From contig JACOUX010000067.1 in the NCBI GenBank assembly GCA_016177615.1, forward strand, positions 1-42,021: DNA of 42,021 nucleotides, in the 5' to 3' direction. The DNA comes from Candidatus Woesearchaeota archaeon. Lineage in GTDB: Archaea; Nanobdellota; Nanobdellia; Woesearchaeales; GW2011-AR4. This document shows, piece by piece, positions 8,668-38,738 of the stretch. Within the stretch, counting starts at the first letter, position 1. Every line of letters starts with the position of its first letter. Position numbers and translations under genes: made by a program. The notes beneath the pieces are model-generated. The model searched no databases. It worked only from the letters and a program-made list of their open reading frames with translations, and was not told the DNA's origin.

Positions 8668-8686
8668 GAAAAATTAATTTTAAATT

Positions 8687-9205: not shown

Positions 9206-9264
9206 AGAGATTATTATTCATTTACAATATATAAAACTTTTGGAAACTGGACGGCTCTTAAACA

Positions 9265-9442: not shown

Positions 9443-9444
9443 GC

Positions 9445-9828
9445 TCATACAGAATCGATGCGAATCTCCCTATGTTTTTCATTAAAAGTAATTATGAACT
9501 TGTCAAAAACAGTTTCTCTCCCAAGAAGATTGAAGGAAGTTACAAGTTCGTCAGAAAAGGCGGCTTTACAAATTATTTCCATGCCTCCAATCATCATTTT
9601 AACTTCATGCACATAGCCGGAAAGCTTGGCAGAGGCTCCTTGAAAAATTCTTTTTTCGCCGGATTCTATATCAATTCCAATCTGCCTGCCAACGCTGCTG
9701 TTGAAAATTGAAATGGAGGCGCCAGAATCAACTATAGCAGAAGTGTTAACTTCCCCTCCTTCTTTGGAGAGTTTAATGGGGATTATTGGATAATAAAAAC
9801 CTCTAAAGACCTGATAAGAAAACTTCAT
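9445..9828 (-). CDS. Retropepsin-like aspartic protease domain protein
   Basis: It encodes 127 aa. The flap-family signature is present: AIVDSGASISIF (catalytic D-S/T-G at about residues 34-36) and a closing NLLGRETVFDKFIITFN. That is one retropepsin-like lobe, which would act as a dimer. No signal peptide is seen. Its start overlaps the stop of the upstream 68-aa gene by four bases (ATGA), so they are co-translated. A processing or toxin-like role is inference. It lies opposite to, and between, the surface-protein cassettes. Confidence 0.75.
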   Translation of the reverse strand: MKFSYQVFRGFYYPIIPIKLSKEGGEVNTSAIVDSGASISIFNSSVGRQIGIDIESGEKRIFQGASAKLSGYVHEVKMMIGGMEIICKAAFSDELVTSFNLLGRETVFDKFIITFNEKHREIRIDSV

Positions 9829-22235: not shown

Positions 22236-22286
22236 TTTTTTGGCATTTGAAGAATTTTTAATCTTCGAGATTAAAAATTTTTATAA

Positions 22287-22973
22287 TTATTTTCCAAGAT
22301 AAGCTTCCAAAACTTTCCTGTCTTTGACAATCTCTTTCGGCTTCCCGACTTTCAAGACCTTGCCTTCATTCAATACAATCACAGTATCGCTTATGTCCAT
22401 GACAAATTCCATATCATGCTCTATCAGGAAGACTGTTTTGCCTTCTTTTCTCAAATTTCTCAAAATTGTTTTTAGCTCCTGCCTTATCTTTGGATTTACT
22501 CCCGCAGTCGGCTCGTCAAGCATCAAAAGAGAATGCGGCATAAGCAATGCCCTTGCAAGCTCCAGAAGCCTCTGCTGGCCGTAGGAAAGCTCTGAGGCAA
22601 TGGTGTCCAGAGGCTTATCAAAATATATGCTTTTTAGAATCCTTTTGATTTCATCATCACTTGCCTTTTTCGCAATCAGCATATTGTCCCTCACGCTCAA
22701 ATTCCTGAAAACTTTTGTCAATTGGAAAGTCCTGCTGATTCCTGATTTTGCAATTTTGTGCGCTGCTAGTCCGGTAATATTTTTGCTTCCAAGCCTTATA
22801 ATTCCAGAATCAGGTTCTGCCAATCCGCTTATGATATTAAAGACAGTGGTCTTGCCAGCGCCGTTTGGGCCTATAAGAGAAGTTATCTTATTTTCCTCGA
22901 CCTCAAAGATGCATTTATTTACAGCCTTAACTCCTCCAAAGGTTTTTGAGACATTTTTCAGGGATAGAATCAT
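22287..22973 (-). CDS. livG: Branched-chain amino acid type ABC transporter ATPase LivG
   Basis: It encodes 228 aa. Walker A GPNGAGKTT, GISRTFQLTKVFRNLSVRDN (a LivG hallmark), signature LSYGQQRLLELARALL, Walker B LMLDEPTAGVNP and the switch LIEHDMEFVM are present. It is somewhat shorter than bacterial LivG (about 255 aa). Its start overlaps the livM stop by four bases, so translation is coupled. Confidence 0.93.
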   Translation of the reverse strand: MILSLKNVSKTFGGVKAVNKCIFEVEENKITSLIGPNGAGKTTVFNIISGLAEPDSGIIRLGSKNITGLAAHKIAKSGISRTFQLTKVFRNLSVRDNMLIAKKASDDEIKRILKSIYFDKPLDTIASELSYGQQRLLELARALLMPHSLLMLDEPTAGVNPKIRQELKTILRNLRKEGKTVFLIEHDMEFVMDISDTVIVLNEGKVLKVGKPKEIVKDRKVLEAYLGK

Positions 22974-23851
22974 ACTTCAACCCTCCCAAATATGCCCCTG
23001 GGCCTGAAAATAAGCAGGTAAATTACAATGACAGAATAAACCATTGTTCTTGACGCGCCTATAAGCTCCGGATGCTGCGCTAAAACAGTTGACAATAAAG
23101 GCACCCTGTCTATGAACCTTATCAATTCTACAAAAATGCCCAGCGTGAAAACTCCGGCTATTGAACCTTGTATCGAAGCTAGCCCCCCTGCTATGAGCAT
23201 AGACAATATCAGGACAAAAAATTCCAAATCAAAAATTGTTGGATCGACAAACTTTATGTAATGCACAAAGAGGCTGCCGGCCAGGCCTGCAAAAAAGGTG
23301 GAGATAGTTATTGAGAGGATTTTATAAAAATAAGTGTTTTTTCCCAATACGGAAGAGGCAGTTTCATCGTCTCTGATCGCCTGGAATATCTTACCTGTTC
23401 CGGAATTTGTGAGCCAGTAGAAAAAAATGACGGACAATGCAAAGACGGCCATAACAAAAATCATGTAATGAAGGCTGTCCTTAAAAATTGGAGGCACGCC
23501 AGGCAATCCAAGAGCCCCCCTTGTAAGTGAAATCCAGTTTCTTGAGAGCGTCACTGCTATAAAAACCAAGCCCAAAGTCACAATCTGGAAATAATCTCCT
23601 TTCAGCCTTACTGTCAGTGCTGCGATTATTGCTCCCGAAAGTGCTGCTATTAAAGCTGATGAGGGCACTGCAAGATACCATGGAGCCCCGCTTAATGCGA
23701 GCAATGCAGAAGCATAGGCGCCTATGCCAAAAAAAACCATATGGCCTAGATTGACAAGTCCCGTAAATCCTACTGCAAGATTAAAAGACATGACTATAAT
23801 TGTGTAAATTAGCACAATAAGCAAAAAATAAATAAGAAAATCATGAATCAC
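22970..23851 (-). CDS. livM: Branched-chain amino acid type ABC permease LivM
   Basis: It encodes 293 aa with about eight to ten membrane segments and the family stretch NLAVGFTGLVNLGHMVFFGIGAYASALL. A permease loop with LTRGALGLPGVPP is visible, and the protein ends in IFRPRGIFGR, the usual LivM C-terminus. It forms the membrane channel with LivH. It overlaps livH by 11 bases and livG by 4. Confidence 0.92.
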   Translation of the reverse strand: MIHDFLIYFLLIVLIYTIIVMSFNLAVGFTGLVNLGHMVFFGIGAYASALLALSGAPWYLAVPSSALIAALSGAIIAALTVRLKGDYFQIVTLGLVFIAVTLSRNWISLTRGALGLPGVPPIFKDSLHYMIFVMAVFALSVIFFYWLTNSGTGKIFQAIRDDETASSVLGKNTYFYKILSITISTFFAGLAGSLFVHYIKFVDPTIFDLEFFVLILSMLIAGGLASIQGSIAGVFTLGIFVELIRFIDRVPLLSTVLAQHPELIGASRTMVYSVIVIYLLIFRPRGIFGRVEV

Positions 23852-24728
23852 GGGCTTTCACCCCCAAAATGCCTTGAGGCCTAAGCAGCAGGAAAAGCAG
23901 CATGATAACAAAGGAGATTATATCCTTATAGCCTGTTGGAAAGTATAAAACTCCGATATTCTCTGCCAGTCCTATGAACAACCCTCCGATTATGGAGCCA
24001 GGCACTGAGCCAAGCCCGCCAACAACAGAGCTTACAAAGCCCTTGACAATTATAGGTATGCCCATCCTTGGATAAAGATTCTGCTCAAGCCCAAGGAGAA
24101 TGCCTCCAACAGCTGCAACCATGCCTGCGATAATAAAGGTATAAGTATAGATCTTCTCTGGGCTTATTCCCACAACCTGCGCAACTTCTTTGTTGTCAGC
24201 CAATGCCCTCATTGCCTTTCCAAGCCTTGTTTTTTTGAGAATAAACCATAGTGCAAGAAAAATAATTATGGCAATGATTATGATAGATAGCTGAATTGAG
24301 GTTATTGTAAATGTGCCAAAATCAAAAACTTTGTTTTGGCCAAGTGTTATTGACTTGGTGCTTGAGCCGAAAATCGCCTGAAGCAGCGCAGTCGCAAAAA
24401 TAAGAAGCACTACAGAAACTATGAGCTTGATGTTGGAAGTTGCTCTTCTTTTTCTCAGCGGATTGTAAATTAGAAAATTTGTAAGCAAAGTAGCTAAAAT
24501 GCTTATGATTACTGTCAATGCGCCTGAAAACAGATAATTCATGCCCATTAGATTCAGGAAAGCGAAAAATGAGTAAGCAGCTATTGACATTATGGCACCA
24601 TGCGAGAAGTACTGGAACTTGAGGACGTAATAGACAAGAGCAAATCCCGCAGCAGCCAGCGCATATATTGAGCCGGCAATAAGGCCGTTTATTATGAGCT
24701 GGGGGAGTATTGATGGCATTTTGCTCAA
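23841..24728 (-). CDS. livH: Branched-chain amino acid type ABC permease LivH
   Basis: It encodes 295 aa. The LivH opening LINGLIAGSIYALAAAGFALVY and the loop LGKAMRALADNKEVAQVVGI are clear, and it ends in LLRPQGILG. About eight hydrophobic segments are visible. It overlaps the HEPN gene upstream by four bases (ATGA), so that gene is translationally coupled to the transporter. Confidence 0.92.
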   Translation of the reverse strand: MSKMPSILPQLIINGLIAGSIYALAAAGFALVYYVLKFQYFSHGAIMSIAAYSFFAFLNLMGMNYLFSGALTVIISILATLLTNFLIYNPLRKRRATSNIKLIVSVVLLIFATALLQAIFGSSTKSITLGQNKVFDFGTFTITSIQLSIIIIAIIIFLALWFILKKTRLGKAMRALADNKEVAQVVGISPEKIYTYTFIIAGMVAAVGGILLGLEQNLYPRMGIPIIVKGFVSSVVGGLGSVPGSIIGGLFIGLAENIGVLYFPTGYKDIISFVIMLLFLLLRPQGILGVKARDS

Positions 24729-25141
24729 ATCTCCTTCAAATATTTGGTCTTAAGAAGCTGAATCAGCCCTGTTATATCTTTTTTGGCAGCTTGAACTTCT
24801 GTAATTCCTACCTTTTCTCCATAATAATTTATTGAATTTCTTAGCTTCCTTAAATTGTCAAATCTGACAGCTGCAGATTCTTCGTCTTTTTCCTTAAGAA
24901 AATAAGTAAATGCCTCATGCGAATAGACTTTAAGCCCTTCCTTAAGGCAAATCGCCTCTATCACTTCCCTAAGAGCTTCATAGTATGTTACTAAGATGCT
25001 TCCAGAGCTTGTTTCGTTTATTTTTTGATTTTTCAAGAACGCTAAATGATTATTTGACGTTTGAACCAATGACCTAACCTTTGGAATATCCGGACTGCCT
25101 TTTCTAACTTTGCCTTGTTCAATAAAATCATTAAATCTCAC
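24725..25141 (-). CDS. HEPN-like protein inside the liv operon
   Basis: It encodes 138 aa, all helical. The stretch ILVTYYEALREVIEAICLKEGLKVYSHEAF resembles the central HEPN helices. FDNLRKLRNSINYYG matches the R-x4-6-H/Y position near the end of the domain, with Tyr in place of His, so RNase activity may be absent. It overlaps both neighbours by four bases. With the upstream HTH-nucleotidyltransferase it forms an MNT/HEPN pair embedded between livJ and livH. Confidence 0.65.
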   Translation of the reverse strand: MRFNDFIEQGKVRKGSPDIPKVRSLVQTSNNHLAFLKNQKINETSSGSILVTYYEALREVIEAICLKEGLKVYSHEAFTYFLKEKDEESAAVRFDNLRKLRNSINYYGEKVGITEVQAAKKDITGLIQLLKTKYLKEI

Positions 25142-25686
25142 CTGAACGCCTCCAAATAGCCTTTTATAACCATTCCGTTTAATATGCTATTGGCAAGATT
25201 TTTGTTCTCTTTTTCCATTCTCATCAGCTCGTCTTTGCTGCTGACAAATAATTGTATTTTTACCTTAAGCTTTTTCTCAAATATATCGAGATTAATCCCT
25301 TTTTTGGCATTGCTGAGTATAAACAAGTCTACATCGCTGTTTTTATCATTTTCGCCTTTTGAATAAGAGCCAAAAATTATTATTGCCTCAGGATAGTGCA
25401 ATTCCTTGTCTAAAAATTCAATTAAGCCTGACTTCCTTATATTTTTAATGTTGTAGTGCATCTTGGCATCCTTATAGCCGCTGCTATCGGTGTCTGCCTT
25501 AAACATCAGGTGCATCCTTTCATATTTTTTTAATAAAAGTCTTTCATTATGAAGCGTGTTCAGGTACTTTGATGCTGTTGTCGGGTTTAGCTTCAGCAGC
25601 CTGGCCATTTCCCTAACGTGAAACCATTTGCTTGGCTCATCGAAAAAGTGCTTCAAAAAGCGCTCAATGTTTATTATTTTGGACAT
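25138..25686 (-). CDS. Winged-helix plus MNT nucleotidyltransferase
   Basis: It encodes 182 aa. Residues about 1-60 form a winged helix (FHVREMARLLKLNPTTASKYLNTLHNERLL). Residues about 90-150 form a nucleotidyltransferase core, IIIFGSYSKGENDKNSDVDLFIL, with G-S and D-x-D intact and a third acidic region at KVKIQLFV. This fusion may bind DNA and modify the adjacent HEPN protein. Its position in the operon, 75 bases after livJ, raises the possibility that it regulates transporter expression; that is inference. Confidence 0.8.
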   Translation of the reverse strand: MSKIINIERFLKHFFDEPSKWFHVREMARLLKLNPTTASKYLNTLHNERLLLKKYERMHLMFKADTDSSGYKDAKMHYNIKNIRKSGLIEFLDKELHYPEAIIIFGSYSKGENDKNSDVDLFILSNAKKGINLDIFEKKLKVKIQLFVSSKDELMRMEKENKNLANSILNGMVIKGYLEAFR

Positions 25687-25761
25687 CTGTCTAAATAAAT
25701 AGACGATTGTTTAAAAATGTTTCGGATTTAAAATAATAAAATAAAAGAAAAAATTAAGAAA

Positions 25762-26925
25762 TTACTTTAATGTTATAAGCTCGCCGTTCTTTATCTGCTT
25801 CACATTAAAGTCAAGGACAACATCGCCGTTGCTGTCAAGCGAGACTTTTCCGACAGCGCCATTGTAGCCCTTCACGCTGTAGAAGTAATCCCTAAGCTTC
25901 TCGCCGTCGTATCCATTCTTCTCAATTCCGTCTTTTATCAGGTAAACGATGTCGTAAGCTGCTGACATGTAAGCCGGGAATGGCGCGTCTTCCTTTGTCT
26001 CCTGCTTATACTTTGCGAGGACTGGCGCTGCTTTTGGATTCTTATCGTCAAATTTCTGCTCTACCCCAATCATGCCGTCAACATCGGTTGCGCTTTCTTT
26101 GACAACATCTCTGCCTATCATCACTTCGGCAGTAAGCAGCTGCTTGGCTACTCCGGCTTCTTTCAGCTGCTTCACAAGCAAAACTCCTTTTGCCTTTGTT
26201 TGAGGAACAAGATAAACAACGTCAGGGGCTGCTGCCTTGACTTTTGTAACCTGAGTCCTGAAATCAGTGTCTTCAGGATTGAAAGTTTCATCTGCCACAA
26301 CCTGGCCGCCGAGCTTCTCAAAGTTCTCCTTGAAAACTCTTCTCAATCCTTGGGCGTAATCCGTTGATTCGGATATGATTGCAGCTTTCCTGAACTTTAG
26401 GTCTTTGAAAGCGTAATCAGATGCTACAACCCCTGCAAAAGCGTCGCTGGGGCTTAACCTAAAGACAAAGTCCCCTCCATTTGTTGTTATATCGGGAGAA
26501 GTCGCGCTTGGAGATACCATTACTACCTTGTTTTCATTTGCTATTGGAGCAGCTCCAAGAGTCTCCCCAGAGCAAACTCCGCCTATTATTATTTTAACCT
26601 TGTCAATATTAATGAGCTTTTGGGCTGCTGCGTTTCCATCTTTTGGATTGCATTTGCTGTCTTCATAAACGAGCTCAAGCTTTCTTCCATTAACGCCGCC
26701 TTTGGCATTGATTTCATCGGCAGCGAACTTTGTGGTTCTTTGGATTGGCAAGCCATACGCTGCAGCATCCCCTGTTAAAGGATACATCACTCCAATCTTA
26801 TAAGCTCCCTGCTGCACCGGCTTCACTTCGCCGCCGCTTGGCTGCTGTGTAGTTTGCTGTTGAACTTCGCATGCAGCGATAAATAACACCATCAATGCTA
26901 GAATGACTAAGATTGCTTTTTTCAT
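25762..26925 (-). CDS. livJ: Branched-chain amino acid type ABC substrate-binding lipoprotein LivJ
   Basis: It encodes 387 aa. The leader MKKAILVILALMVLFIAAC ends in a lipobox with Cys19, followed by a Gln/Thr-rich tether. The type I periplasmic-binding fold shows IGVMYPLTGDAAAYG, INAKGGVNGRKLELVYEDSKC, the central VSPSATSPDIT and a C-terminal IKNGELI. It would capture the ligand outside the membrane and hand it to LivHM. The exact ligand cannot be told. It has a strong Shine-Dalgarno (GGAGGT, minus strand, 26935-26940) and its own promoter. A bacterial-type Lgt is encoded at 37169. Confidence 0.93.
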   Translation of the reverse strand: MKKAILVILALMVLFIAACEVQQQTTQQPSGGEVKPVQQGAYKIGVMYPLTGDAAAYGLPIQRTTKFAADEINAKGGVNGRKLELVYEDSKCNPKDGNAAAQKLINIDKVKIIIGGVCSGETLGAAPIANENKVVMVSPSATSPDITTNGGDFVFRLSPSDAFAGVVASDYAFKDLKFRKAAIISESTDYAQGLRRVFKENFEKLGGQVVADETFNPEDTDFRTQVTKVKAAAPDVVYLVPQTKAKGVLLVKQLKEAGVAKQLLTAEVMIGRDVVKESATDVDGMIGVEQKFDDKNPKAAPVLAKYKQETKEDAPFPAYMSAAYDIVYLIKDGIEKNGYDGEKLRDYFYSVKGYNGAVGKVSLDSNGDVVLDFNVKQIKNGELITLK

Positions 26926-29028: not shown

Positions 29029-31716
29029 TTATCCCTTCCACCTTCTCATCAGCAAACTGTTGCTTACAACACTGACTGAAGAGAATGCCATTGCCGCTGC
29101 CGCTATTATCGGGTTAAGCAAAAACCCGGAAAACGGGTATAATAAGCCGGCAGCAACCGGAATGCCTGCAACATTGTATATGAACGCCCAGAATAAATTT
29201 TGCCTGATTTTTTTGATAGTGTAAGAGCTCAGCTTTATTGCTGTGACAACGTCTCTTAAGTCGTTCTTGACGAGGATTATCTGGCCTGTTTCTATGGCAA
29301 CATCAGTTCCCGCTCCCACTGCAATGCCAATATCAGCTGCTGCAAGCGCAGGAGCATCATTTATTCCGTCTCCAACCATTGCAACAACCTTGCCTTCTGA
29401 CTTTAATTTCTTGATTTCTTTTTCCTTATCCTGAGGCAGCACTTCAGCAAGAATCTTTCCGATTCCAAGCTGCGATGCAATGGCTTTTGCAACCCTTTCA
29501 TTGTCGCCTGTAATCATTATGACTTCCTTGCCGAGCTTGTGCAATTCTTCTATTGCCTCTTTAGAATTCTCCTTTAAAGTGTCAGCTATTGCGATAAGCC
29601 CGATAATGGATTTGTTTATTGCAAGGATCACAGTTGTCCTGCCATGCTCCTCAAGCTCCCTGATATTTTTCTCTGCCTCATCGCTTATCCTGATTTTGTA
29701 TTGATACATCAGCTTGTTGTTTCCTATCAGGATGCCATAATTATTGTATTTTGCAGAAACGCCTTTCCCGCTGACAGCTTCGAATTTGCCCGGCTCGCTA
29801 AGCGTTATTTTCCTGCTTTTTGCAAGATTCACCACAGCTTCTGCCAGCGGATGCTCTGAGCTTTTTTCTGCAATCGCAGCAAACTTCAACATATCATTCT
29901 CGACAAATTTCCTGTCCAAAGCAACAATGTCAGTCACTTCCGGCTTTCCCTTGGTCAAAGTGCCTGTCTTGTCAAACACAATTGTATCAAGCTTGTGGGC
30001 TGTCTCAAGGGCTTCTGCGCTCTTGATTAGGATGCCATGCTCTGCTCCTTTTCCGGTGCCGACCATTATTGCTGTTGGAGTTGCCAAGCCAAGGGCGCAA
30101 GGGCATGCTATTATTAATACGGCAATAAATATAGTTAAAGCGAAGATAAATGGATTGGAAACGCTGAGGAAATTTGGAGCCAATACATACCAAAAAATAA
30201 ATGAGAGAATTGCAATTAAAATCACTATCGGAACAAAAACACTGGAAACCTTGTCAGCCAGCCTTTGTATAGGCGCTTTTGAGCCCTGCGCCTCCTCAAC
30301 AAGCTTTATTATCTGGGCAAGCATTGTATCAGAGCCAACCTTTGTTGCCTTGACTTTAAGCATGCCGCTCTTGTTGAGCGTCGCCCCTATGACTTTGTCA
30401 TTTTCTTTCTTTGACACAGGCATGCTTTCTCCTGTGAGCATTGACTCATCAACATGGGAAGCGCCAAAAACAACAATGCCGTCTGTTGGTATTTTCCCTC
30501 CAGGTTTTACTATAAAAACATCATCAATCTGCAGCTCTTCTATCGGGATTTCCAGTTCCTTGCCATCCCTGACCACAACTGCTGTTTTTGCCTGCAAGCC
30601 AATAAGCTTCCTTATTGCCTCTGATGCCTTGCCCTTTGTCAGCGCCTCAAGATATTTTCCAAGCAAAATAAACGTAATGATTATTGCAGATGTATCATAA
30701 TAGACGCTTCCTGTAAACGTTTTAGGAAAAAATGTCACAAGAATGCTGTAGATGTAAGCTGCGCCTGTCCCTACTGCAATCAAAGTGTCCATGTTTGCAC
30801 TCTTGTTCATCAAGCCGATGTAAGTGCCAACATAAAATCTGTAAGCAAGAATAAGCTGCACAGGGCTTGCAAGAATGAGCAAAACAAAATCATGATAGGG
30901 AACTGTTACATTAAACCAGTCTGGAAAGGAGAGGACAAATATGGGGATGCTCAAAATTGCCCCTATTATAACTTCCCACTTTAATCTTCTAATCTCTTTT
31001 TCCCTTGTTGCCTTTTCAGTGTCAGCCATTGCGCTGGAAACTTCAACTGGCTCATAGCCTGCCTTTTTAATCGCATTTTTGATTTCTTCTGCATTTGTCA
31101 ATGCAGGATCATATTTTATGAAGGCATTTTGATTGACATACAGCTCTTTTGAAATTACCCCATTGAGCAGATTCAGAGAATCGCCTACGGTCCCGACGCA
31201 ATGCGGATTGTCCATTCCAATAACTTTAAGCTTAATCTCAGCGACGTTGCCTGCTGTTTTTTCTGATGTTTTTTCTTCTGTTCCCTCAACTACTTTATAC
31301 CCAGTTTTCTTTACCGCATCTTTTAGGGCATTTTCATTCACTTTGCTGCTGTCAAATTCCACATTTGCCTTTTCAGAAGCGAAATTGACGCTTGCTTTCA
31401 CAACACCTTCTGTTTTTGAGAGCGCTTTTTCTATTGTATTAGCGCATGAGGCACAGTGCATTCCGGAAATTGGGATGGATGTTTTTTGGGTTTTGTTCTC
31501 GGATAGACTATTGCCTTTTTTTCCGGTCAGAATCTGTTTTTTAACATTTTTTTTAATTAATGGACCTTTTTTTAATGATATTTTATCCAATGCAGTTTCA
31601 TTGAATTTGCCATAGCAATTCCTGCTGCAGAAATAATATTTTTTTCCATCTCTGACTAGCTTGAACTTCGCCTTCTTTTCATCAATTTCCATTCCGCAAA
31701 TTGGGTCTTTTGGCAT
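29029..31716 (-). CDS. copA: Copper-transporting P1B-type ATPase with YHS domain
   Basis: It encodes 895 aa. Residues 1-40 are a YHS/TRASH metal-binding domain (PICGMEID...YFCSRNC). HMA domain 1 has GMHCASC (85-91). A second HMA-like domain follows but shows NPHCVGT with a single Cys, so it is degenerate. Then come an actuator domain with TGES, a CPC transmembrane site (IACPCALGLATPTA), the phosphorylation loop DKTGTLTKG, HP motif SEHPLAEA and GDGINDAPALA. It exports Cu(I), or possibly Ag(I), from the cytoplasm. It is the last gene of a set transcribed from 31891. Confidence 0.93.
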   Translation of the reverse strand: MPKDPICGMEIDEKKAKFKLVRDGKKYYFCSRNCYGKFNETALDKISLKKGPLIKKNVKKQILTGKKGNSLSENKTQKTSIPISGMHCASCANTIEKALSKTEGVVKASVNFASEKANVEFDSSKVNENALKDAVKKTGYKVVEGTEEKTSEKTAGNVAEIKLKVIGMDNPHCVGTVGDSLNLLNGVISKELYVNQNAFIKYDPALTNAEEIKNAIKKAGYEPVEVSSAMADTEKATREKEIRRLKWEVIIGAILSIPIFVLSFPDWFNVTVPYHDFVLLILASPVQLILAYRFYVGTYIGLMNKSANMDTLIAVGTGAAYIYSILVTFFPKTFTGSVYYDTSAIIITFILLGKYLEALTKGKASEAIRKLIGLQAKTAVVVRDGKELEIPIEELQIDDVFIVKPGGKIPTDGIVVFGASHVDESMLTGESMPVSKKENDKVIGATLNKSGMLKVKATKVGSDTMLAQIIKLVEEAQGSKAPIQRLADKVSSVFVPIVILIAILSFIFWYVLAPNFLSVSNPFIFALTIFIAVLIIACPCALGLATPTAIMVGTGKGAEHGILIKSAEALETAHKLDTIVFDKTGTLTKGKPEVTDIVALDRKFVENDMLKFAAIAEKSSEHPLAEAVVNLAKSRKITLSEPGKFEAVSGKGVSAKYNNYGILIGNNKLMYQYKIRISDEAEKNIRELEEHGRTTVILAINKSIIGLIAIADTLKENSKEAIEELHKLGKEVIMITGDNERVAKAIASQLGIGKILAEVLPQDKEKEIKKLKSEGKVVAMVGDGINDAPALAAADIGIAVGAGTDVAIETGQIILVKNDLRDVVTAIKLSSYTIKKIRQNLFWAFIYNVAGIPVAAGLLYPFSGFLLNPIIAAAAMAFSSVSVVSNSLLMRRWKG

Positions 31717-31735: not shown

Positions 31736-31891
31736 TTAACTAACTGAATGCTTTGTTATCTCTAAACTGCAGCTATGATATTTTTTGCAGTACTGCTCGC
31801 ATTTTTCAGCCCATATTCTGTCTTTGTAACTAAATCCGCATTCCTTGCATTGAAAGTGCGCTTTTCCGGCTCTAAATACTTTCTGTACCAT
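31736..31891 (-). CDS. Small Cys-rich zinc-ribbon-like protein, 51 aa
   Basis: It encodes 51 aa: MVQKVFRAGKAHFQCKECG, then KDRIWAEKCEQYCKKYHSC and ITKHSV. The pattern CxxCG...WAEKC..YC...SC is one seen in small archaeal proteins near metal genes, as remembered. Five cysteines suit metal binding, possibly copper delivery to CopA. It lies 19 bases upstream of copA on the same strand. A TATA box (minus strand, actTTATAATta) lies at about 31907-31917 and AGGT lies before the ATG. Confidence 0.75.
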   Translation of the reverse strand: MVQKVFRAGKAHFQCKECGFSYKDRIWAEKCEQYCKKYHSCSLEITKHSVS

Positions 31892-31903
31892 AGTCGTATA
31901 CCT

Positions 31904-31924
31904 AAGTAATTATAAAGTAATTAT
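31904..31924 (-). promoter_or_regulatory. Promoter region of the copA unit with repeated AGTAATTAT
   Basis: Two direct copies of agtaattat (31904-31912 and 31915-31923) cover the TATA box and the end of the next gene. They are a possible regulator site. Confidence 0.4.
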
Positions 31925-32772
31925 GTATCCCAGTTGAATTCTCTTGCTGCGCTGTCAGTTATAACTAATTTTATTGATTTTGCATTTTCATTTATTTTTG
32001 GAAAGATTAATGTGCCGCTTCTGTGGTGGCCGCCCGGCTCCGAGCCCTCCCATTTCAGCGGCTTGTAGATATTTCCCAAGTCGTCATAAAGCACAGATAT
32101 CTGAGCAAGATCAAAATCAAGATTGACTGAATGAGTGTCAATTGCAATCTGGAACTGTGAAGCGCTTAGCGGAGTTACGCTGAATTCCACATTATTCTGA
32201 TTGGATGCCAATGGCTGCAGCGCAGTCCCCTGCTTAATGCCTTGCTGTATTCCAGAATCTTCGCTTTGCAGTACAAACCAATATGATAAGCCAACAGCTA
32301 TGACTGAAACAGCTAGCAGCGAATAAAAAACAACCTTCATTTTCTGCTTTGGAAGATCTACATTAACCAGGCGGTACATATAAGCGATTCCAAGTATGTT
32401 TGATAATACCCCCATCAACAGAAAGGTTGACTGGTATTTTGTAAAAAATAACCCCAATGCTGAAATTCCAAGAAACGGAGCTACATCGGCTATATGATGT
32501 GCGCAGCAGGCAACCATTGAAGTGGCAGACATTCCTGTTGATGCAGCTGCCTGCCCCATTGCCTTGGCATGCATCTGCTCTTTGACATAAAAAAACATTC
32601 CTATCTGGATTCCAAAGCCAATGACAAGAGGCACCATCCAGTACCACAGCTTTACAAAATTGTCAACTGCGAATGAAACTCCCCCAAGCAAAGACGCAAC
32701 TATGAAATAAAAAGCCAAAAGCGCTGCGCTTCCCAATAGCCCTTTGATTACGTATTTGTCATTGTTTTCCAT
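31921..32772 (-). CDS. Membrane protein with CC-HH motif (metal-related)
   Basis: It encodes 283 aa. About five or six membrane segments occupy the first 175 residues. Between them lies TSMVACCAHHIADVAPFLG, a Cys-Cys-x-His-His site likely to bind copper or another soft metal. The last 100 residues form a soluble, probably extracytoplasmic beta domain (VEFSVTPLSASQFQIAIDTHSVNLDF...WEGSEPGGHHRSGTL), with another His pair. The function is not established; the context next to copA suggests metal handling. Confidence 0.65.
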   Translation of the reverse strand: MENNDKYVIKGLLGSAALLAFYFIVASLLGGVSFAVDNFVKLWYWMVPLVIGFGIQIGMFFYVKEQMHAKAMGQAAASTGMSATSMVACCAHHIADVAPFLGISALGLFFTKYQSTFLLMGVLSNILGIAYMYRLVNVDLPKQKMKVVFYSLLAVSVIAVGLSYWFVLQSEDSGIQQGIKQGTALQPLASNQNNVEFSVTPLSASQFQIAIDTHSVNLDFDLAQISVLYDDLGNIYKPLKWEGSEPGGHHRSGTLIFPKINENAKSIKLVITDSAAREFNWDT

Positions 32773-32792
32773 TTTAATAGCTAATGTATATT

Positions 32793-32993
32793 TTACTGGC
32801 TTTTGTGATCTATTCCTAAAAAATTATGCAGCCAGCACCACCCAATAAAGCTTTCAGCCAGCGCAATCCACCCAATAACAAATATGAGCCAGTTAACCCA
32901 TTCAATATTGTAATTTGGCACCCAGGGACCGAGCCACCAGAAAGCAAGCGCAAATCTTAAAATTCTGTCAACTATTCCCAGATTCTGCTTCAT
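32793..32993 (-). CDS. DUF2892 small membrane protein
   Basis: It encodes 66 aa from MKQNLGIVDRILRFALAFWW. This start is preferred over one 42 bases upstream because AGAAGGTG lies just before it and the family begins with N-G-DR-LR. Two membrane segments are separated by a short loop, and it ends at a CWLHNFLGI segment. DUF2892/YgaP-like proteins often accompany sulfur or metal genes. It lies 20 bases before the CC-HH membrane gene. Confidence 0.75.
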   Translation of the reverse strand: MKQNLGIVDRILRFALAFWWLGPWVPNYNIEWVNWLIFVIGWIALAESFIGWCWLHNFLGIDHKSQ

Positions 32994-33144
32994 TTTTACA
33001 CCTTCTAAAAGACAGCTTCTGCTTTTCAGCAGCATCCTTTTGATTTTCCTTTTCCCATTTTGATTGCCTCCATCTGCAGTATATCCGATAATATGTCCAA
33101 TTTAGATATATTAAAATATTAGCTACTATTTAAACTTTTCTATT

Positions 33145-33188
33145 TATATCAAAATACGACATATCAAAAACAGAAAGGTATTTATATC
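33145..33188 (+). promoter_or_regulatory. PadR-gene promoter with repeated ATATCAAAA
   Basis: atatcaaaa occurs twice (about 33146 and 33162), upstream of a TATA element gtaTTTATAtc at about 33178-33188. The ATG at 33209 is about 25 bases on, so the transcript is probably leaderless. The region also faces the divergent DUF2892 operon. Confidence 0.45.
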
Positions 33189-33208
33189 ATTGTAACATAT
33201 GCGCTTTC

Positions 33209-33625
33209 ATGGCAAAAATAAAAATAACAAACATGCTGAAGTTCTACACATTGTGCCTTCTGGCAGAAGGGCCAAAGCACGGATATGAGCTGATAAAGGA
33301 GCTTGGGCGCAATTTGGGAAGAAGCATCAGCGCAAGCAACGTTTATCCGTTCCTTGAGGTTCTGAAAAAAAATAGGATGATCGCTATTGACAAAGTCGGA
33401 AAAAGAGACAAGAAAATTTATCATTTGACTGCAGAAGGAAGAAACTTTACAAGGGACATGTTCAGCAAATTTGGGGATTTGATTGATGTGGCGATAAAGC
33501 CGAGAATAGCAACATGCCCATGCGGGTGCAAGATTTATTCAGGCGGGCATTCTGAAAGAATCAAGGGCAGGCTGATGAAGTTCTGCTGCAGCCACTGCGC
33601 AAGGATGCACAAGGCAAAAATTTGA
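33209..33625 (+). CDS. PadR-family regulator with Cys-rich metal-binding tail
   Basis: It encodes 138 aa. Residues 1-85 are a PadR winged helix (LCLLAEGPKHGYELIKELGR, NVYPFLEVLKKNRMI, YHLTAEG). Instead of the usual dimerisation helix, the C-terminus carries CPCGCKIYSGGHSERIKGRLMKFCCSHCARMHK, a TRASH-like cluster of six Cys and several His. This suggests direct sensing of copper or a similar metal. It is divergent from the metal-related operon and probably controls it. Confidence 0.85.
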   Translation: MAKIKITNMLKFYTLCLLAEGPKHGYELIKELGRNLGRSISASNVYPFLEVLKKNRMIAIDKVGKRDKKIYHLTAEGRNFTRDMFSKFGDLIDVAIKPRIATCPCGCKIYSGGHSERIKGRLMKFCCSHCARMHKAKI

Positions 33626-33630
33626 ATTTA

Positions 33631-34188
33631 CTAATCAGAAACAGCATCCAAAAACGCCTTCCACTGCCCCTCGTCAAAGACTCCGAGCCCTTTGTAGATT
33701 ACGGTTCCATTTCTGGCTATGGCATACTTTGTTGTAGTTTTTGTTATCTGGTAATCCTGAAGAATCTGCTCCTGCCCTGGCGCAAATATGGTTTTTTGGA
33801 GCTTCGGATATTTTTTCTTGTAGTCCATAAGCTTCGGAATGCCCTCGCTTAAATCCAGGCTGATAGAGATAAAAACAACCTTGTCTTCGTAATCCTTGTA
33901 CACGTTTGACAAATGCCCATAGTCTTCTGCGCAGTAAGGGCACCATGTTGCCATGAAATAAACTATAACCGGCTTTTGATCCCTGAAATCGCTCAATCTT
34001 ATCGGCTTTCCTTCTGTGCTTATTATTGTGAAGTCTGGAGCAATGTTTCCGTTCCTGATTCCAGTCACGACTGCCTGATTAAGCTCCTGTGTTGATGCTT
34101 TTGATTTTAGCTCGAGATTGCCGGTGTTGGTGCAGCTATTAATAAAAAACACCAAAAACATAGCAGATAGCAATAATTTTAATTTCAT
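33631..34188 (-). CDS. TlpA-like thioredoxin-fold lipoprotein
   Basis: It encodes 185 aa from MKLKLLLSAMFLVFFINSC, chosen because it begins with a lipobox signal (Cys19) while the upstream ATG adds a non-signal extension. The thioredoxin fold shows APDFTIISTEGKPIRLSDF, the active site ATWCPYCAEDYGHL and YAIARNGTVIYKGLG. It is probably an extracytoplasmic thiol-disulfide oxidoreductase, supporting maturation of Cys-rich proteins encoded nearby. Confidence 0.88.
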   Translation of the reverse strand: MKLKLLLSAMFLVFFINSCTNTGNLELKSKASTQELNQAVVTGIRNGNIAPDFTIISTEGKPIRLSDFRDQKPVIVYFMATWCPYCAEDYGHLSNVYKDYEDKVVFISISLDLSEGIPKLMDYKKKYPKLQKTIFAPGQEQILQDYQITKTTTKYAIARNGTVIYKGLGVFDEGQWKAFLDAVSD

Positions 34189-34249
34189 TTTTAACAATAT
34201 TTTTATGTTGGATTGATATTTTATTGAAAGAATCAAGCTTGTTTATTAA

Positions 34250-34750
34250 TTATTCCTTGCAGCAGTCCACTATTTTCTTAACCATCTCCGAGAACTTTGC
34301 CATCAATCCGTTTCTTGGAATGCTGTTTGGGTTTGCGGCTATCTGCTTTGCTTCCACCATCTTCAGGTTGATTCCCCAAAAGAGCGAATAAAGATTAAAT
34401 GCTGAAGTAAAAAACATATTTGCCTCTCTTTCATTATTTTTTGAAAGCTCTTTTGTACCTACTTCAAGCAGGCGCATGCTTGATGCAAGGAGATGCTTGC
34501 TTATGCACCATTCCTCGCCGACTGGATTTTTTACAATTTTTCTTAGCATGCCTTTTCTTAATTCCCTTACAGAATTAAGCATTTCCAGATATTTCTGGTT
34601 GCCTGTTTTCATCGCTGTAAAATAGAAATGCTCTTCAAGGCTTATAAGATTCATCAATGCAATGCTTAAGTCCTCGTCTCTTGACAAATCAACATCCCCT
34701 TTCTTTACCTCTTCAATTTTCCTCATCCATTCCTTTACTTCCTGCTCCAT
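34250..34750 (-). CDS. Helical hypothetical protein, 166 aa
   Basis: Not recognised. It is all-helical and soluble, opening VKEWMRKIEEVKKGDVDLSRDEDLSIALMNLISLEEH, with a repeat-like middle (KHLLASSMRLLEVGTKEL) and a C-terminal IVDCCKE Cys pair. Its position between the CPLC membrane protein and the TlpA-like lipoprotein, on the same strand, suggests one thiol/metal operon. Confidence 0.65.
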   Translation of the reverse strand: MEQEVKEWMRKIEEVKKGDVDLSRDEDLSIALMNLISLEEHFYFTAMKTGNQKYLEMLNSVRELRKGMLRKIVKNPVGEEWCISKHLLASSMRLLEVGTKELSKNNEREANMFFTSAFNLYSLFWGINLKMVEAKQIAANPNSIPRNGLMAKFSEMVKKIVDCCKE

Positions 34751-34787
34751 TTTGTTCTCTTCTCTGTTTTGTACTTTCTGCTATATT

Positions 34788-35339
34788 TTAGGCTGCATAA
34801 GTTAAGTATAGAACAGTGCCGCTTGCCAAAAGAAATGCCAGCGTCAATGCAATGCCCTGAAACGGAAACAAGACTTTTCCGTTCACTTTTTTGATGGCCG
34901 TATGGGAAGCGTATGCCAAAGTGGTTACAATTCCGCCGATTATGCTTCCAAATAATATCTTATTGAGCCAATAAACCTTGTTCAGTAAACTTCCAGCCAG
35001 TCCGAAAAATAGCAATGGGAGGTAAACTGTGCTTTTGTCAATGTACATCAGCGGAATCACTGTCAGCAAAAATGACGCTGCCACGATAAGCGGGAGCTGA
35101 AACCTGAAAAACTTCTTTAGCTTCAGCCCAATCCACAGCCCTGTTGAAACTCCGAATGCGCCGATAAGCAGGCCTATAATAGTCACATCCATTCCGTAAT
35201 ACTTGGCAGAGACAGCTGCGGCCCCGACAGCGGCAGTGCAAAGAGGGCAATGCGCATAAGCTGCAGGAGCAACAGCTGCAAAAATCAATGCTGAAATAAA
35301 AAAATAGAGTGATATGGGTTTTTTTATCATGTTAAGCAA
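34788..35339 (-). CDS. Membrane protein with extracytoplasmic CPLC motif
   Basis: It encodes 183 aa. A signal-like segment ends in AAYA, followed at once by HCPLCTAAVG, so the CxxC would face the outside. About five further membrane segments follow. Family function is unknown to me. A role in thiol redox or metal binding next to the TlpA-like protein is inferred. Confidence 0.65.
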   Translation of the reverse strand: MLNMIKKPISLYFFISALIFAAVAPAAYAHCPLCTAAVGAAAVSAKYYGMDVTIIGLLIGAFGVSTGLWIGLKLKKFFRFQLPLIVAASFLLTVIPLMYIDKSTVYLPLLFFGLAGSLLNKVYWLNKILFGSIIGGIVTTLAYASHTAIKKVNGKVLFPFQGIALTLAFLLASGTVLYLTYAA

Positions 35340-35368
35340 AATTTTTAGTTATCAATTTAAAATCAATC

Positions 35369-35447
35369 TGGCCTCGCTATCGCTCAGCCAAAATATTGTG
35401 CTCGGCTCTCGCTTCCCTTTCAATCGCTCGAGCCTCGCCTATTAATA
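35369..35447. repeat. GC-rich mosaic repeat in intergenic DNA
   Basis: ctggcctcgctatcgctcag and ctctcgcttccctttcaatc followed by gctcgagcctcgcc share the words CTCGC and ATCGCTC in a strongly AT-rich gap (35340-35492). On the minus strand GGCTCG...GAGCC could form a weak hairpin. Nature unknown. No gene is seen in this gap. Confidence 0.4.
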
Positions 35448-35492
35448 CAATAAATTAATTAAATTTACAAACCCATAATCCTAATTCACCCA

Positions 35493-35816
35493 TCAACATC
35501 CGCCTACCATTCCAGACGATGGGTTTGAACTTCCCAATCTTGCTGGCAAAGTCCCATGATGCTCGTACATCATCTTTTCGTCTTCTGTCCAGCCAGTCAT
35601 GTCAATGCCTCCAGTTCCTGAAGCGCTTTTTACGGCGTTTGCACTTATCTGGCCTTTCATTGAATTTATCTGGAACGACTGCACAATTGACAATAACAAA
35701 ACAACTGCAACCATCACTGCCAAAACAATATTTTTCATTCCAATTTTTTCTGCGTGCTTATTCTTGCAGCAGTCTTCTTCGCCTTTGCTTTTGCAGCATT
35801 CATGCTCGCTTTCCAT
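35493..35816 (-). CDS. Small membrane-anchored Cys-rich protein, 107 aa
   Basis: The start MESEHECCKSKGEEDCCKNK is preferred: the track upstream of it reads like non-coding and the family-like Cys pairs come first. Four cysteines in two CC pairs face the cytoplasm. One membrane helix (IVLAVMVAVVLLLSIVQSF) follows. The outside domain has MTGWTEDEKMMYEHHGTLPARLG and a terminal GGC. Metal binding is likely. It follows the 223-aa gene by 43 bases. Confidence 0.65.
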   Translation of the reverse strand: MESEHECCKSKGEEDCCKNKHAEKIGMKNIVLAVMVAVVLLLSIVQSFQINSMKGQISANAVKSASGTGGIDMTGWTEDEKMMYEHHGTLPARLGSSNPSSGMVGGC

Positions 35817-35859
35817 TTTCTCACCTTTGTTAGTTTCCTGGTTATGCTGGCTTTTCAGC

Positions 35860-36531
35860 TTAATTCTCCATATTCCTGTACTTGTTCGAAGCCAAATTAA
35901 TGTAATTAATGTCAATTCCTTTTGCCTTCAGCACAGATGCCTTTTTGCCAATCTGTTGCGGGAAAAACAATGTCTTCCACTTGCCAAGCTCCTCAAGTAT
36001 TGCATCATTTGTATACTCATTACCATGGTTTTTTATCAGGTATTTTGCAAGCCCCCTCATCGCAAAGCTGTGCTGACATCCGCATGCCGGCTGGCCGTCC
36101 TTGAATATTATGGAGTCTGTTCCGCAGCAGTATTCGCAGCTGATTTGACTGACTGTTGCAATATACCTTTCTTTGTCCTTTCCGCTGAGCTTTATCTGGC
36201 TGTCCAGAGTACCCAGTTTCGCTATTGTCGCATCTGCTTTCTGCTGGTTTGAGGCAGAGACATCGTCATAGCTCACTCCAAGCTCTTTTCCGTAGATTTC
36301 AGGAACGCCTTTTGGTGTTACATCCACTGCTTCCGGTTGGCTTAGAGCAGTTTTTCCAGCAGCATTGGTTTGGATATTTTGGCCTGTGGCTGGAACATTT
36401 GCAGCAGCATTGGCTGTCGCCGCCTGCATTGCCTTCAGTTGCTTCATCTCAAACATATTGAATCCTATTACTAGCATTGCAGCGATTGTCATCACAATCA
36501 GCACACCCTCAATCCTATTATTTAATACCAT
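35860..36531 (-). CDS. Membrane-anchored Cys-cluster protein (SCEYCCG...CGC)
   Basis: It encodes 223 aa. One N-terminal membrane helix (EGVLIVMTIAAMLVIGFNMF) is followed by an Ala/Gln-rich linker. The outside domain has SQISCEYCCGTDSIIFKDGQPACGCQHSFAMRGLAKYL, similar to PCYCGC-type proteins, with five Cys and a His fit for metal binding. Its placement with other Cys-rich membrane proteins supports a role in metal capture or redox at the surface. Confidence 0.7.
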   Translation of the reverse strand: MVLNNRIEGVLIVMTIAAMLVIGFNMFEMKQLKAMQAATANAAANVPATGQNIQTNAAGKTALSQPEAVDVTPKGVPEIYGKELGVSYDDVSASNQQKADATIAKLGTLDSQIKLSGKDKERYIATVSQISCEYCCGTDSIIFKDGQPACGCQHSFAMRGLAKYLIKNHGNEYTNDAILEELGKWKTLFFPQQIGKKASVLKAKGIDINYINLASNKYRNMEN

Positions 36532-36629
36532 TATTTCACCTTTAAACTGCTTTAAACCGTTTTTACTATCAGAACAAGAAATGAAATAGCTTTATAAAAT
36601 AGCGATGAAACTAGTTTCAGGTTGAAATT

Positions 36630-37136
36630 TCACTTCAGCACAACAATATTCGTCATTCCCCTTCTTTTCTTCTCAAGAATGTCTTTGGACTCCATTTTGT
36701 CAAGAACTCTTGTGACTTTCACTTTGCTGAATCCTGTCTGTTTTATCAAATCGCTTTGGTATGCCGAGCCGTTGCCGCCCTTGACAAGCTCATAAACTTT
36801 TTTTTCGTCTTCGTCAAGCTTGGACAGGTCTATCTCCATGAATTCTTTTTTTGCCCCTCTGGCGCCTGAACTGTAAAAGAATGTCATATACACACCAACA
36901 GCGAAAATCAGGAAGTCAATGACAAAGGCAGCTGTCACCATCCAGGACAATTTGCTCCAGAATGAGTTTGCCTGGTGAACAGGGCAGGTGCTCATATCCA
37001 GCTTGTTTTTGTGGAATTCCTCGCATAAAAAGGCAGATTCCTCATCAATCTGCATCTTCATGTATACCAGCACTGCAAATAAGACTAATGAAAATGCAAT
37101 CAGCGAATATCCGATTATTTTTTCTTTGCCAACCAT
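36630..37136 (-). CDS. Membrane-tethered winged-helix regulator, 168 aa
   Basis: Two membrane helices (YSLIAFSLVLFAVLVYM and WMVTAAFVIDFLIFAVGVYMTFF) flank an outside loop with two Cys (FLCEEF...STCPVHQANS). A cytoplasmic winged helix (DEDEKKVYELVKGGNGSAYQSDLIKQTGFSKVKVTRVLDKM) ends the protein. The architecture suggests a sensor that reads a thiol or metal signal outside and acts on transcription inside. It lies upstream of the Cys-rich membrane genes on the same strand. Confidence 0.75.
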   Translation of the reverse strand: MVGKEKIIGYSLIAFSLVLFAVLVYMKMQIDEESAFLCEEFHKNKLDMSTCPVHQANSFWSKLSWMVTAAFVIDFLIFAVGVYMTFFYSSGARGAKKEFMEIDLSKLDEDEKKVYELVKGGNGSAYQSDLIKQTGFSKVKVTRVLDKMESKDILEKKRRGMTNIVVLK

Positions 37137-37168: not shown

Positions 37169-37954
37169 TTATTTTTTCCATAAATAAGCGAGCATGTAAA
37201 CTCCAATTAAAAACAGCGGGAAACTCAGCAATTGTCCCATCGTAAAATAGCCGAAGATAAACCCGATCTGCTCGTCCGGAGCCCTGAAAAATTCTATAAA
37301 GGTGCGGAAGAGGCCATATAGCGCAACAAACGTCCAGAACATGAAGCCCTTTGGAAGCGTTATGCCTTTTTCGTACCACAGCACAGCAAAAATTGCCAAG
37401 TTCTTTAAAGATTCATAAATCTGGCTCGGGTGCCTGCATCCTTCAGGAAGGCCTTCAATAAATGTATTTTTTGAATAGTCAATGCACCAGGCAACATTGC
37501 TCAGCCTTCCAAAGACTTCTGCATTTATGAAGTTGCCAATCCTTCCCAAGGCAAGGGCAAGCGCAGCCGGCACAACGACAAGATCTGCAAGGTCATAAAA
37601 TTCTATCTTCTTCTTTCTGCAGAACATGTATCCTGCAATTATAGAGCCGATAAATCCGCCGTGGAAGCTCAAGCCGCCATGCCAAACAGCAAAAATCTCA
37701 AGGGGACTCTGCAAGTAAAACGGAAGATTATAGAATAATATGTATCCCATGCGGGATCCCCCTACAACCCCCACAATCAAATAAATGAGAAAATCGGCAG
37801 CATCATCCTTTGTAAATGGAATTCCTTTTTTCCTTGCGACATAAGGAATCATGAAATACGCGATGACAAAGCCAAGCGCATAGAACAAGCCGTAATACCT
37901 TATCTGCAGTGTGCCCAAATCCAAAAGAACCGGGTTTAGGTTGTGGTAGAGCAT
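37169..37954 (-). CDS. lgt: Prolipoprotein diacylglyceryl transferase (Lgt)
   Basis: It encodes 261 aa from MLYHNLNPVLLDLGTLQIRYYGL; an ATG 15 bases upstream would overlap the previous gene further. The bacterial Lgt signature GRIGNFINAEVFGR is intact, as are HGGLSFHGGFIG and seven hydrophobic segments. Lgt attaches a diacylglycerol to the lipobox Cys of exported proteins. Likely clients here are LivJ and the TlpA-like protein, both with lipoboxes. Most archaea lack Lgt, so the gene was probably acquired from bacteria. Confidence 0.93.
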   Translation of the reverse strand: MLYHNLNPVLLDLGTLQIRYYGLFYALGFVIAYFMIPYVARKKGIPFTKDDAADFLIYLIVGVVGGSRMGYILFYNLPFYLQSPLEIFAVWHGGLSFHGGFIGSIIAGYMFCRKKKIEFYDLADLVVVPAALALALGRIGNFINAEVFGRLSNVAWCIDYSKNTFIEGLPEGCRHPSQIYESLKNLAIFAVLWYEKGITLPKGFMFWTFVALYGLFRTFIEFFRAPDEQIGFIFGYFTMGQLLSFPLFLIGVYMLAYLWKK

Positions 37955-37955
37955 A

Positions 37956-38738
37956 TCAGCCTCTCGCAATGCGGTAAAATGAAATGCGGTTTACCAATAT
38001 TACAAAATAAAAAGCAGCATAAGTAAATAAAATTGAAATTTGCCTGTAGTAGGAATAGGCATTTAGGTATATGCCAGAATTGCTTGAAGTGGCAAATCCC
38101 ACCAGAGCCCAGATTGCATAGAACAAGGCAAATATTCCGATTGGCACCATTATTATAGCCAGGATTGCGCTTTTGTATTTCTTGAATCCCAATCCTGTCC
38201 TGAATGACACCTCCAAAGCGCGCTTAATTGAGCCAGAGGAATAATAATATGAATGTGAGAGGTTGATTAAGGTGTATAGCAGCAAAAATAAAGGTAATCC
38301 GGCTATAATAAAAACTGCTGGCCTGTACTGGGGCTGGACATTTGCCAGCAGCAGGCTGAATGCCAGATAAATGGGCAAAACCAAGATCAAGTTAAGGGCA
38401 TAGAACCTTGCCAGTCCCTTAAAAGAAAACTCGCTCTTTTGAAACAAGCCCCTTACTGCATCAAGCACAACGTACTTGAAAAAGGAATATGTAAAAATCA
38501 TAAGAAGGTAATAAATGGCTGAGAATAGAAAATAAGCTGTCAGGTATTGAAGCTGTGAGGAGATGAGCCGGAAAGGAACCAAAAATGCCTCTCCGAAGTA
38601 TCCTGCCAAATATGGCAGCAAATAAAAAAATGATAAAAAAAATGCAGCATCAAACAGGACCATCAATCCTAAATTCCCGGGCCTTGATTTTGCAAGCTTA
38701 AGGCTCTTGATGAAAAGAGATTCTTTTAGTATCCCCAT
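37956..38738 (-). CDS. Polytopic membrane protein, 260 aa
   Basis: Not recognised. Six membrane segments are visible, for example LMVLFDAAFFLSFFYLLPYLAGYF, AVFIIAGLPLFLLLYTLINL and ILAIIMVPIGIFALFYAIWALV. The loops are basic. It ends just before lgt on the same strand and probably forms an operon with it. A TATA box (minus strand gaTTTAAATac) at about 38761-38771 predicts a leaderless transcript. Confidence 0.65.
   Translation of the reverse strand: MGILKESLFIKSLKLAKSRPGNLGLMVLFDAAFFLSFFYLLPYLAGYFGEAFLVPFRLISSQLQYLTAYFLFSAIYYLLMIFTYSFFKYVVLDAVRGLFQKSEFSFKGLARFYALNLILVLPIYLAFSLLLANVQPQYRPAVFIIAGLPLFLLLYTLINLSHSYYYSSGSIKRALEVSFRTGLGFKKYKSAILAIIMVPIGIFALFYAIWALVGFATSSNSGIYLNAYSYYRQISILFTYAAFYFVILVNRISFYRIARG

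Follow-up and report, generated by a model that had tools for sequence, protein, structure and literature searches.

Do the small cysteine-rich proteins found beside an archaeal copper pump belong together, and if so, what might they do? This question is raised by positions 31736-37136 of a 42,021-nucleotide stretch of Candidatus Woesearchaeota DNA (the window), where ten open reading frames (ORFs) encode a Cys-rich set, here called the island, and the gene for the copper ATPase CopA adjoins them. A preliminary description had placed several Cys proteins, a TlpA-like protein and two regulators within 5.4 kb, and all of these ORFs are indeed present. We find that the island is a real conserved unit of DPANN archaea. 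Its main feature, which goes beyond the preliminary description, is a C-terminal MVGGC end common to two different proteins, namely members of a family that we call DOM and a small protein encoded next to it. From sequence, we consider it about an even chance (probability roughly 0.5) that this conserved DPANN module serves extracytoplasmic copper and thiol handling.

The island lies on contig C57 of a 1.54 Mb genome (G000). Its genes, together with CopA, are as follows.

29029..31716, minus strand: CopA, P1B ATPase of the Cu(I) type, its N-terminal parts being YHS-like and HMA (TIGR01511, 640.8 bits, cut-off 397)
31736..31891, minus strand: C51, 51-aa protein with five Cys, resembling the DUF7128 small zinc finger and scoring below that family's cut-off (PF23447, 21.5 bits against 25.7)
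31921..32772, minus strand: CC-HH membrane protein, a transmembrane (TM) domain with ACCAHH fused to a predicted outside domain with THSV...GGHH
32793..32993, minus strand: YgaP-like TM protein (PF11127, 48 bits, cut-off 25.3)
33209..33625, plus strand: PadR regulator with a C-terminal TRASH-like Cys cluster (PF03551, 52.7 bits, cut-off 27)
33631..34188, minus strand: TlpA/ResA-like thioredoxin with CPYC, start set by inspection (PF00578, AhpC-TSA, 61.9 bits, cut-off 26; below the ResA model cut-off, NF002854, 62.5 bits against 170)
34250..34750, minus strand: helix166, 166-aa soluble protein with the C-terminal end VDCCKE
34788..35330, minus strand: CPLC membrane protein, HCPLC right behind the first hydrophobic segment
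35493..35816, minus strand: CC/CC small protein with one TM helix, predicted cytosolic CC/CC and C-terminal MVGGC (pattern match 35493-35510)
35860..36531, minus strand: CCG-CGC protein of the DOM family, a TM helix at the N-terminus and an ectodomain with CX2CCG...CXCXH, MVGGC tail absent
36630..37136, minus strand: DUF7343 membrane helix-turn-helix (HTH) regulator (PF24034, 50.6 bits, cut-off 27.6)

Because the ORF caller used the first start past a stop, some N-termini are too long. The start of the CC/CC protein was set at MESEHECC by inspection, and the scripted starts of the CC/CC, TlpA-like and YgaP-like proteins lie two codons upstream of the Met listed for them. In several relatives (loci L040-L044 and L050), CC-HH is encoded by two separate genes.

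A C-terminal tail shared by two different proteins

Occurrence of the tail was assessed by searching for MVGGC plus stop as DNA with all synonymous codons allowed, using the reversed pattern and the permuted MGVGC as controls. In a panel of 147 related genomes (the relatives), the tail was found in 58, with 136 matches counted from the table and three genomes holding a single match; the reversed pattern gave 2 matches and the permuted pattern 1. In a sample of 371 genomes from the phylum, 99 carried the tail and 3 control matches were seen. The MVGGC codons differ between copies as synonymous variants. DOM itself was detected in 61 of the 147 relatives. All 58 genomes with the tail have DOM, and 58 of the 61 DOM genomes have the exact tail, although this overlap is partly trivial, DOM itself being a frequent carrier of the tail. 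Outside the window's genus, the exact tail is present in 40 of 43 DOM genomes and in none of the 84 without DOM.

The two carriers were compared in 80 DOM loci, selected as described in the next section. Most DOM proteins and the neighbouring small protein share the exact MVGGC end. Apart from DOM, 84 ORFs in 70 of the 80 loci carry the tail, each with one predicted membrane helix, and their charge bias points to an outside position for 69 (5 against, 10 tied). Ser, Ala, Gln, Gly and Pro abound in the linker ahead of MVGGC, and some linkers hold Met/His motifs, picked by eye, of the MMYEHHG kind (26/84) or the MMARMHP kind (11/84). A redoxin-domain protein and some of the MVGGC proteins share M-M-A-R-M-H-P (L040, position 14385; L111; L124; L180), a possible outside copper site. 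In the window and its close relatives, DOM is without the tail and the small partner ends in MVGGC or QVGSC; one relative, L116, appears truncated. At L179, DOM and the small protein both end in MAGGC, and this paired change, a single case, suggests that both tails meet one common partner.

We take MVGGC to fit the lipobox pattern, and its Cys could in principle be diacylglyceryl-modified by Lgt, which would make the tail a C-terminal lipid anchor and leave the small proteins anchored at both ends. An Lgt gene (37169-37969) adjoins the island, ending 32 bases upstream of the DUF7343 gene, and among the 56 DOM genomes that have Lgt, 17 carry it no more than 10 kb from DOM; for LspA the count is 0 of 50. 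However, ten of those 17 cases belong to one family, and both Lgt (128 of 147 relatives) and LspA (123 of 147) are widespread in the group, so that ordinary lipoproteins account for them. The tail Cys is moreover the last residue and follows a hydrophilic linker instead of the N-terminal hydrophobic segment of a lipoprotein, and the tail is stricter than a lipobox requires. We regard a lipid anchor as very unlikely. At L050 (position 2271), a methyltransferase that by eye resembles the ICMT/PEMT group adjoins Lgt.

Conservation of the gene neighbourhood

An alignment scan of species genomes with DOM yielded 236 relatives, of which the best 80 were taken as loci, so this set leans to the window's type. 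The loci were annotated by plain phmmer; an iterated-profile version was dropped as apparently drifted (DUF411 in 2 loci versus 37). By title, the best 80 of 236 come from Woese-, Pace-, Aenigm-, Diaphero- and Micrarchaeota, from Nanoarchaeota (all DPANN) or from archaea without a stated group, with the one exception of L142, a DOM-MVGGC locus on a contig titled Bacteroidetes for which a binning error is suspected. The closest named DOM relatives of the window are Woesearchaeota groundwater assemblies. A DOM search of viral contigs gave no match.

Neighbours on the DOM strand and within 3 kb were counted in 79 of the 80 loci. A separate small gene bearing the tail is present in 73, CPLC in 59, the DUF7343 regulator in 52, helix166 in 44, a DUF411 gene in 37, CC-HH in 23 and a 150-aa membrane protein, CCmem150, in 17. 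Across the 147 relatives, CC-HH was found in 29, and the fetched loci show matching neighbours; helix166 was found in 28, in every case with CPLC within 2 kb (28/28) and always in a DOM-bearing genome. Characteristic Cys motifs are kept as well, with CC[AVLS]H[HY] in 29 of 34 CC-HH relatives and HCPLC or CCPLC in 55 of 59 CPLC relatives.

These genes could instead be unrelated Cys proteins lying side by side by accident. The window genes are indeed on mixed strands, PadR on the plus strand and the other island genes on the minus strand, with gaps of 5 to 209 bases. The neighbourhood survey proposed in the preliminary description nevertheless contradicts this: in relatives the genes are not scattered independently, their order and co-occurrence are conserved across 79 loci, helix166 always adjoins CPLC, and tails are shared. 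An accidental assembly is thus extremely improbable.

A second tail and the placement of cysteines

A second kind of C-terminal Cys tail is found behind CPLC. In 37 of 43 relatives helix166 ends in CC[KRM][EDK]W?, and in 10 of 17 CCmem150 proteins CC lies near the end. The two occupy one slot and never occur in the same locus (44 and 17 loci, none with both), and they show no similarity beyond the end in the one pair compared (E 0.11). Since helix166 has no predicted membrane segment, the second tail is probably at the inner membrane face.

These observations allow a tentative proposal, which we hold to be possible and short of likely. DPANN archaea may have a hitherto undescribed mechanism of tail and receptor on their surface: MVGGC may be a portable docking-and-carrier tag on varied membrane-anchored proteins, its terminal Cys shuttling Cu(I), a disulfide or a persulfide to and from the DOM ectodomain, and the second tail, KKI(V/I)(D/E)CCK(E/W) on two unrelated proteins of the same slot, may be its inner-face counterpart. 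If this were true, interchangeable C-terminal Cys tails serving as a metal or thiol relay would be a distinct design.

The preliminary description had called the set small membrane proteins and had assigned to all of them paired Cys that face a defined side. The membrane label fits most of them, the exceptions being C51, helix166 and the PadR regulator, in which no TM segment is predicted. Topology in the window was estimated by simple hydropathy and the positive-inside rule on single sequences. By this estimate the CC/CC pairs are inside, CPLC and the DUF7343 loop are outside, and CC-HH lies near the inner face or within the membrane, so that a defined side can be proposed for part of the set. 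"All" was too strong, and N-terminal CC pairs, present in just 13 of the 84 tail-bearing small proteins, are not a family trait. For DOM and TlpA, the single-sequence estimate put the Cys inside by a charge difference of 1 versus 2; across the family, charge bias around the helix favours an outside DOM ectodomain in 74 of 82 sequences, with 1 to the contrary and 7 ties. The DUF7343 regulator is predicted to have two TM helices, an outside loop with C-x12-CPVH and a C-terminal winged HTH; the loop holds at least two Cys in 34 of the 37 copies directly upstream.

The DOM family

DOM proteins are built of a single N-terminal membrane helix followed by an ectodomain, with invariant residues in C-X2-C-C-G and C-X-C-X-H and at later E, W, K and P positions. 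An AlphaFold2 (AF2) model of DOM is confident, with a mean predicted local distance difference test score (pLDDT) of 89 and domain blocks at 94-98. Among 28 DOM members no significant Pfam match was found (E up to 5), CcmH and PCYCGC included, and a PDB sequence search with the DOM profile reached a best E of 0.32, which is chance level. Foldseek gave no match at E 0.001 for the window DOM or for a second, tailed member, and in VIA-align rows on the DOM domain Z was at most 2.8. The absence of a fold match is no proof of a new fold. By eye, we take CcmH/PCYCGC lipoproteins to resemble DOM in having a Cys motif and then helices that contain a '[S/T]D.EI' stretch. Membership of DOM in either family is borne out neither by Pfam nor by a PDB fold match, and the idea was set aside. 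Literature searches, Pfam (28 DOM members) and NCBIfam (window proteins) returned no description of DOM or of the MVGGC tail. As judged from these searches, DOM is a previously undescribed family.

Copper context

CPC, YN(X4)P and M(X2)SS are signatures of Cu(I) pumps (P1B-1). CopA in the window has CPC at 538, YNVAGIP at 847 and MAFSS at 876, together with GMHCASC at 85, and both its family score and its signatures are those of a P1B-1 Cu(I) ATPase. On either strand, CopA is present in 45 of the 80 DOM loci. A Cys-spacing pattern for the TRASH-like part of PadR fits 17 of 17 relatives; in the window that part falls just short of the TRASH cut-off. The 37 same-strand DUF411 genes lie downstream of DOM, in most cases flanked by the tail gene and CPLC; CxCC is present in 31 of 37, and the one copy tested matches CopG (6WIS) at 1.3e-19. 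A COX2/CuA-type domain occurs in 36 of 61 DOM genomes versus 12 of 86 without DOM (outside the window's genus, 23 of 43 versus 12 of 84), and in 13 of the 36 genomes having both, the two are no more than 10 kb apart.

Cys clusters bind all soft metals, and the system could instead detoxify another soft metal or sulfur species (Hg, Ag, Cd, persulfide), with CopA acting as a broad soft-metal pump. Rhodanese-like genes in 6 and OsmC in 4 of the 80 loci would suit such a role. The Cu(I) signatures of CopA and the recurring DUF411/CopG and CuA genes indicate copper, however, and MerA/MerB were not noticed, though no search aimed at them was made. We consider this explanation unlikely.

Thiol context

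The window's genome holds a second DOM-MVGGC pair on contig C35 (L081, G000:C35:4001-14971), at 8197-9537. Next to it are CcdA-like, TlpA-like and multi-thioredoxin genes, along with one for a small lipoprotein that contains VGGGCG. Loci of this type were surveyed in a second set of 20, picked from MVGGC sites, which has a few genomes in common with the other sets. A multi-thioredoxin protein was found in 16, a CcdA-like gene in 15, a Trx-like gene in 13, a CuA-type gene in 8 and TlpA in 4; one locus has a DsbB-family gene (PF02600, 53.5 bits). The CcdA-like label was assigned by eye, and the one copy run against Pfam gave no CcdA match. These neighbour sets indicate that DOM and the tails go with thiol chemistry generally, and with copper genes in one setting.

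The strongest rival to the copper-and-thiol module is a copper-free thiol-disulfide system. DOM and the MVGGC tails would relay electrons or disulfides between membrane CcdA/CPLC and outside thioredoxin-like proteins, like CcmH or a DsbD arm, and the vicinity of CopA would be one regulatory setting. The composition of the second-locus type, where CopA appears in 1 of 20, speaks for such a system, as do the DsbB-family gene, TlpA in the window and the many tail proteins with a single Cys, which is sufficient for a mixed disulfide. In contrast, DUF411/CopG, CopA and CuA-type genes recur around DOM, and Met/His motifs precede the tail in 26 and 11 of the 84 tail proteins. On balance, we find this rival doubtful.

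Weighing a proposed copper and thiol module

Several results weigh against a module for copper and thiol handling. What speaks most strongly against copper as the substrate of DOM itself is the second-locus type, which holds mostly thiol genes and has CopA in just 1 of 20 loci. Around the best 80 DOMs, CopA is on the DOM strand in no more than 35 of 79 loci, only 10 of them within 3 kb. With so many DOM loci lacking a same-strand CopA, and a second-locus type centred on thiol genes, the substrate of DOM may be something other than copper. PadR-TRASH occurs in only 18 of the 80 loci, and its TRASH part in the window scores 25.2 bits (PF24273), just under the cut-off of 27. DUF411 (PF04214) is absent from the window's genome (0 matches in G000) and present in 29 of the 147 relatives. 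The window has no COX2-domain gene, the matches in G000 being on contigs C53 and C23. Across the 80 loci, 19 CuA-family ORFs lie near DOM, and only 6 of these keep C...C...H, so the others may be different cupredoxin-like proteins. In the AF2 model of a tailed member, the last nine residues have a mean pLDDT of 75, against 94-98 for the domain, and the tail is not clearly docked. Finally, part of the tail-DOM overlap is trivial, as noted above, and the Fisher values count related genomes as independent samples, which they are not.

The direct observations are gene order, co-occurrence, motif conservation, protein families and the confident AF2 model of DOM. From these we infer the outside location (by charge bias), Cu(I) as ligand, contact between tail and DOM, transfer and its direction, redox upkeep and sensing. 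In the proposed copper and thiol module, CopA would export Cu(I). Outside, the membrane-tethered DOM ectodomain and the flexible Ser/Gly/Ala-rich MVGGC arms would hold or hand on Cu(I), and the mobile ligand would be the terminal Cys of the tail, perhaps with Met. CPLC and the TlpA/CcdA/thioredoxin partners would keep the thiols of DOM and the tails reduced. The cytosolic PadR-TRASH protein and the membrane DUF7343 regulator, through the latter's outside Cys/His loop, would sense the metal or thiol state and adjust expression. In many relatives, a likely purpose would be to supply orphan CuA-type cupredoxins with metal, or else to store it safely and detoxify it.

The preliminary description had also proposed that the proteins form a relay with CopA for copper or disulfide handling. 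Both contexts are good, copper in the CopA signatures, the CopG-like gene of relatives and the co-occurrence of CuA, and thiol in TlpA and in the CcdA-like and thioredoxin-like genes of the second locus. The copper role and the relay itself are read from gene context.

Comparison with known systems

The archaeal cop cluster pairs a Cu(I) P-type ATPase with a TRASH regulator. The island resembles it in having, close to CopA, a regulator whose Cys cluster is TRASH-like, though just under the TRASH cut-off. The TRASH-domain CopR of Pyrococcus furiosus responds to copper (PMC7830388); the island differs in its PadR-type HTH and in a large predicted outside set (DOM, MVGGC proteins, CPLC) for which no description was found. 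CopG of Pseudomonas aeruginosa (DUF411; 6WIS) is described (PMC8456105) as an extracytoplasmic copper oxidoreductase in which Cys residues bridge a tetranuclear copper cluster, and a relative of it sits in many DOM loci; the gene is, however, missing from the window genome, and DOM matched no solved structure by sequence. In TlpA/ScoI/CuA maturation, TlpA reduces ScoI and the CuA subunit (PMC6696091). A thioredoxin-like reductant, a CcdA-like protein and CuA-type cupredoxins are likewise found in or near DOM loci, but neither Sco nor PCuAC was identified, a respiratory oxidase is not in evidence, and DOM and the MVGGC tails have no known place in that pathway.

Orphan CuA proteins, annotated nosZ, are reported in DPANN with the motif C-X3-C-X3-H (PMC10936187), which the 6 of 19 CuA-family ORFs near DOM share. 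The CuA-family ORFs near DOM are presumably these proteins; DOM and the tail are not mentioned in the part of that report available. The island combines known parts (CopA, a TRASH-like regulator, TlpA and, in relatives, CopG) with a family not described before and a shared tail of an unusual kind.

Other features of the window

Scans for promoters, which used bacterial ones, and for terminators gave results at or close to the level of shuffled sequence. At 32-6589 lies a 2185-aa surface-type protein with GIGTT repeats, in which an apparent internal Hint/intein-like stretch, seen by eye, ends ...NFIANDIVAHNT. On the minus strand at 21528-26925 are genes that, also judged by eye, encode an ABC transporter for branched-chain amino acids, with its binding protein, two permeases and two ATPases.

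Significance

DPANN archaea are thought to be reduced symbionts. Nameless small proteins in about two fifths of the relatives (61/147) and roughly one in four genomes of the phylum sample (99/371, by the tail alone) gain a common context and a testable function, and a plain text search for MVGGC is enough to find the system in any genome. The island may offer a route to how DPANN archaea handle copper and how they may load their orphan CuA-type proteins.

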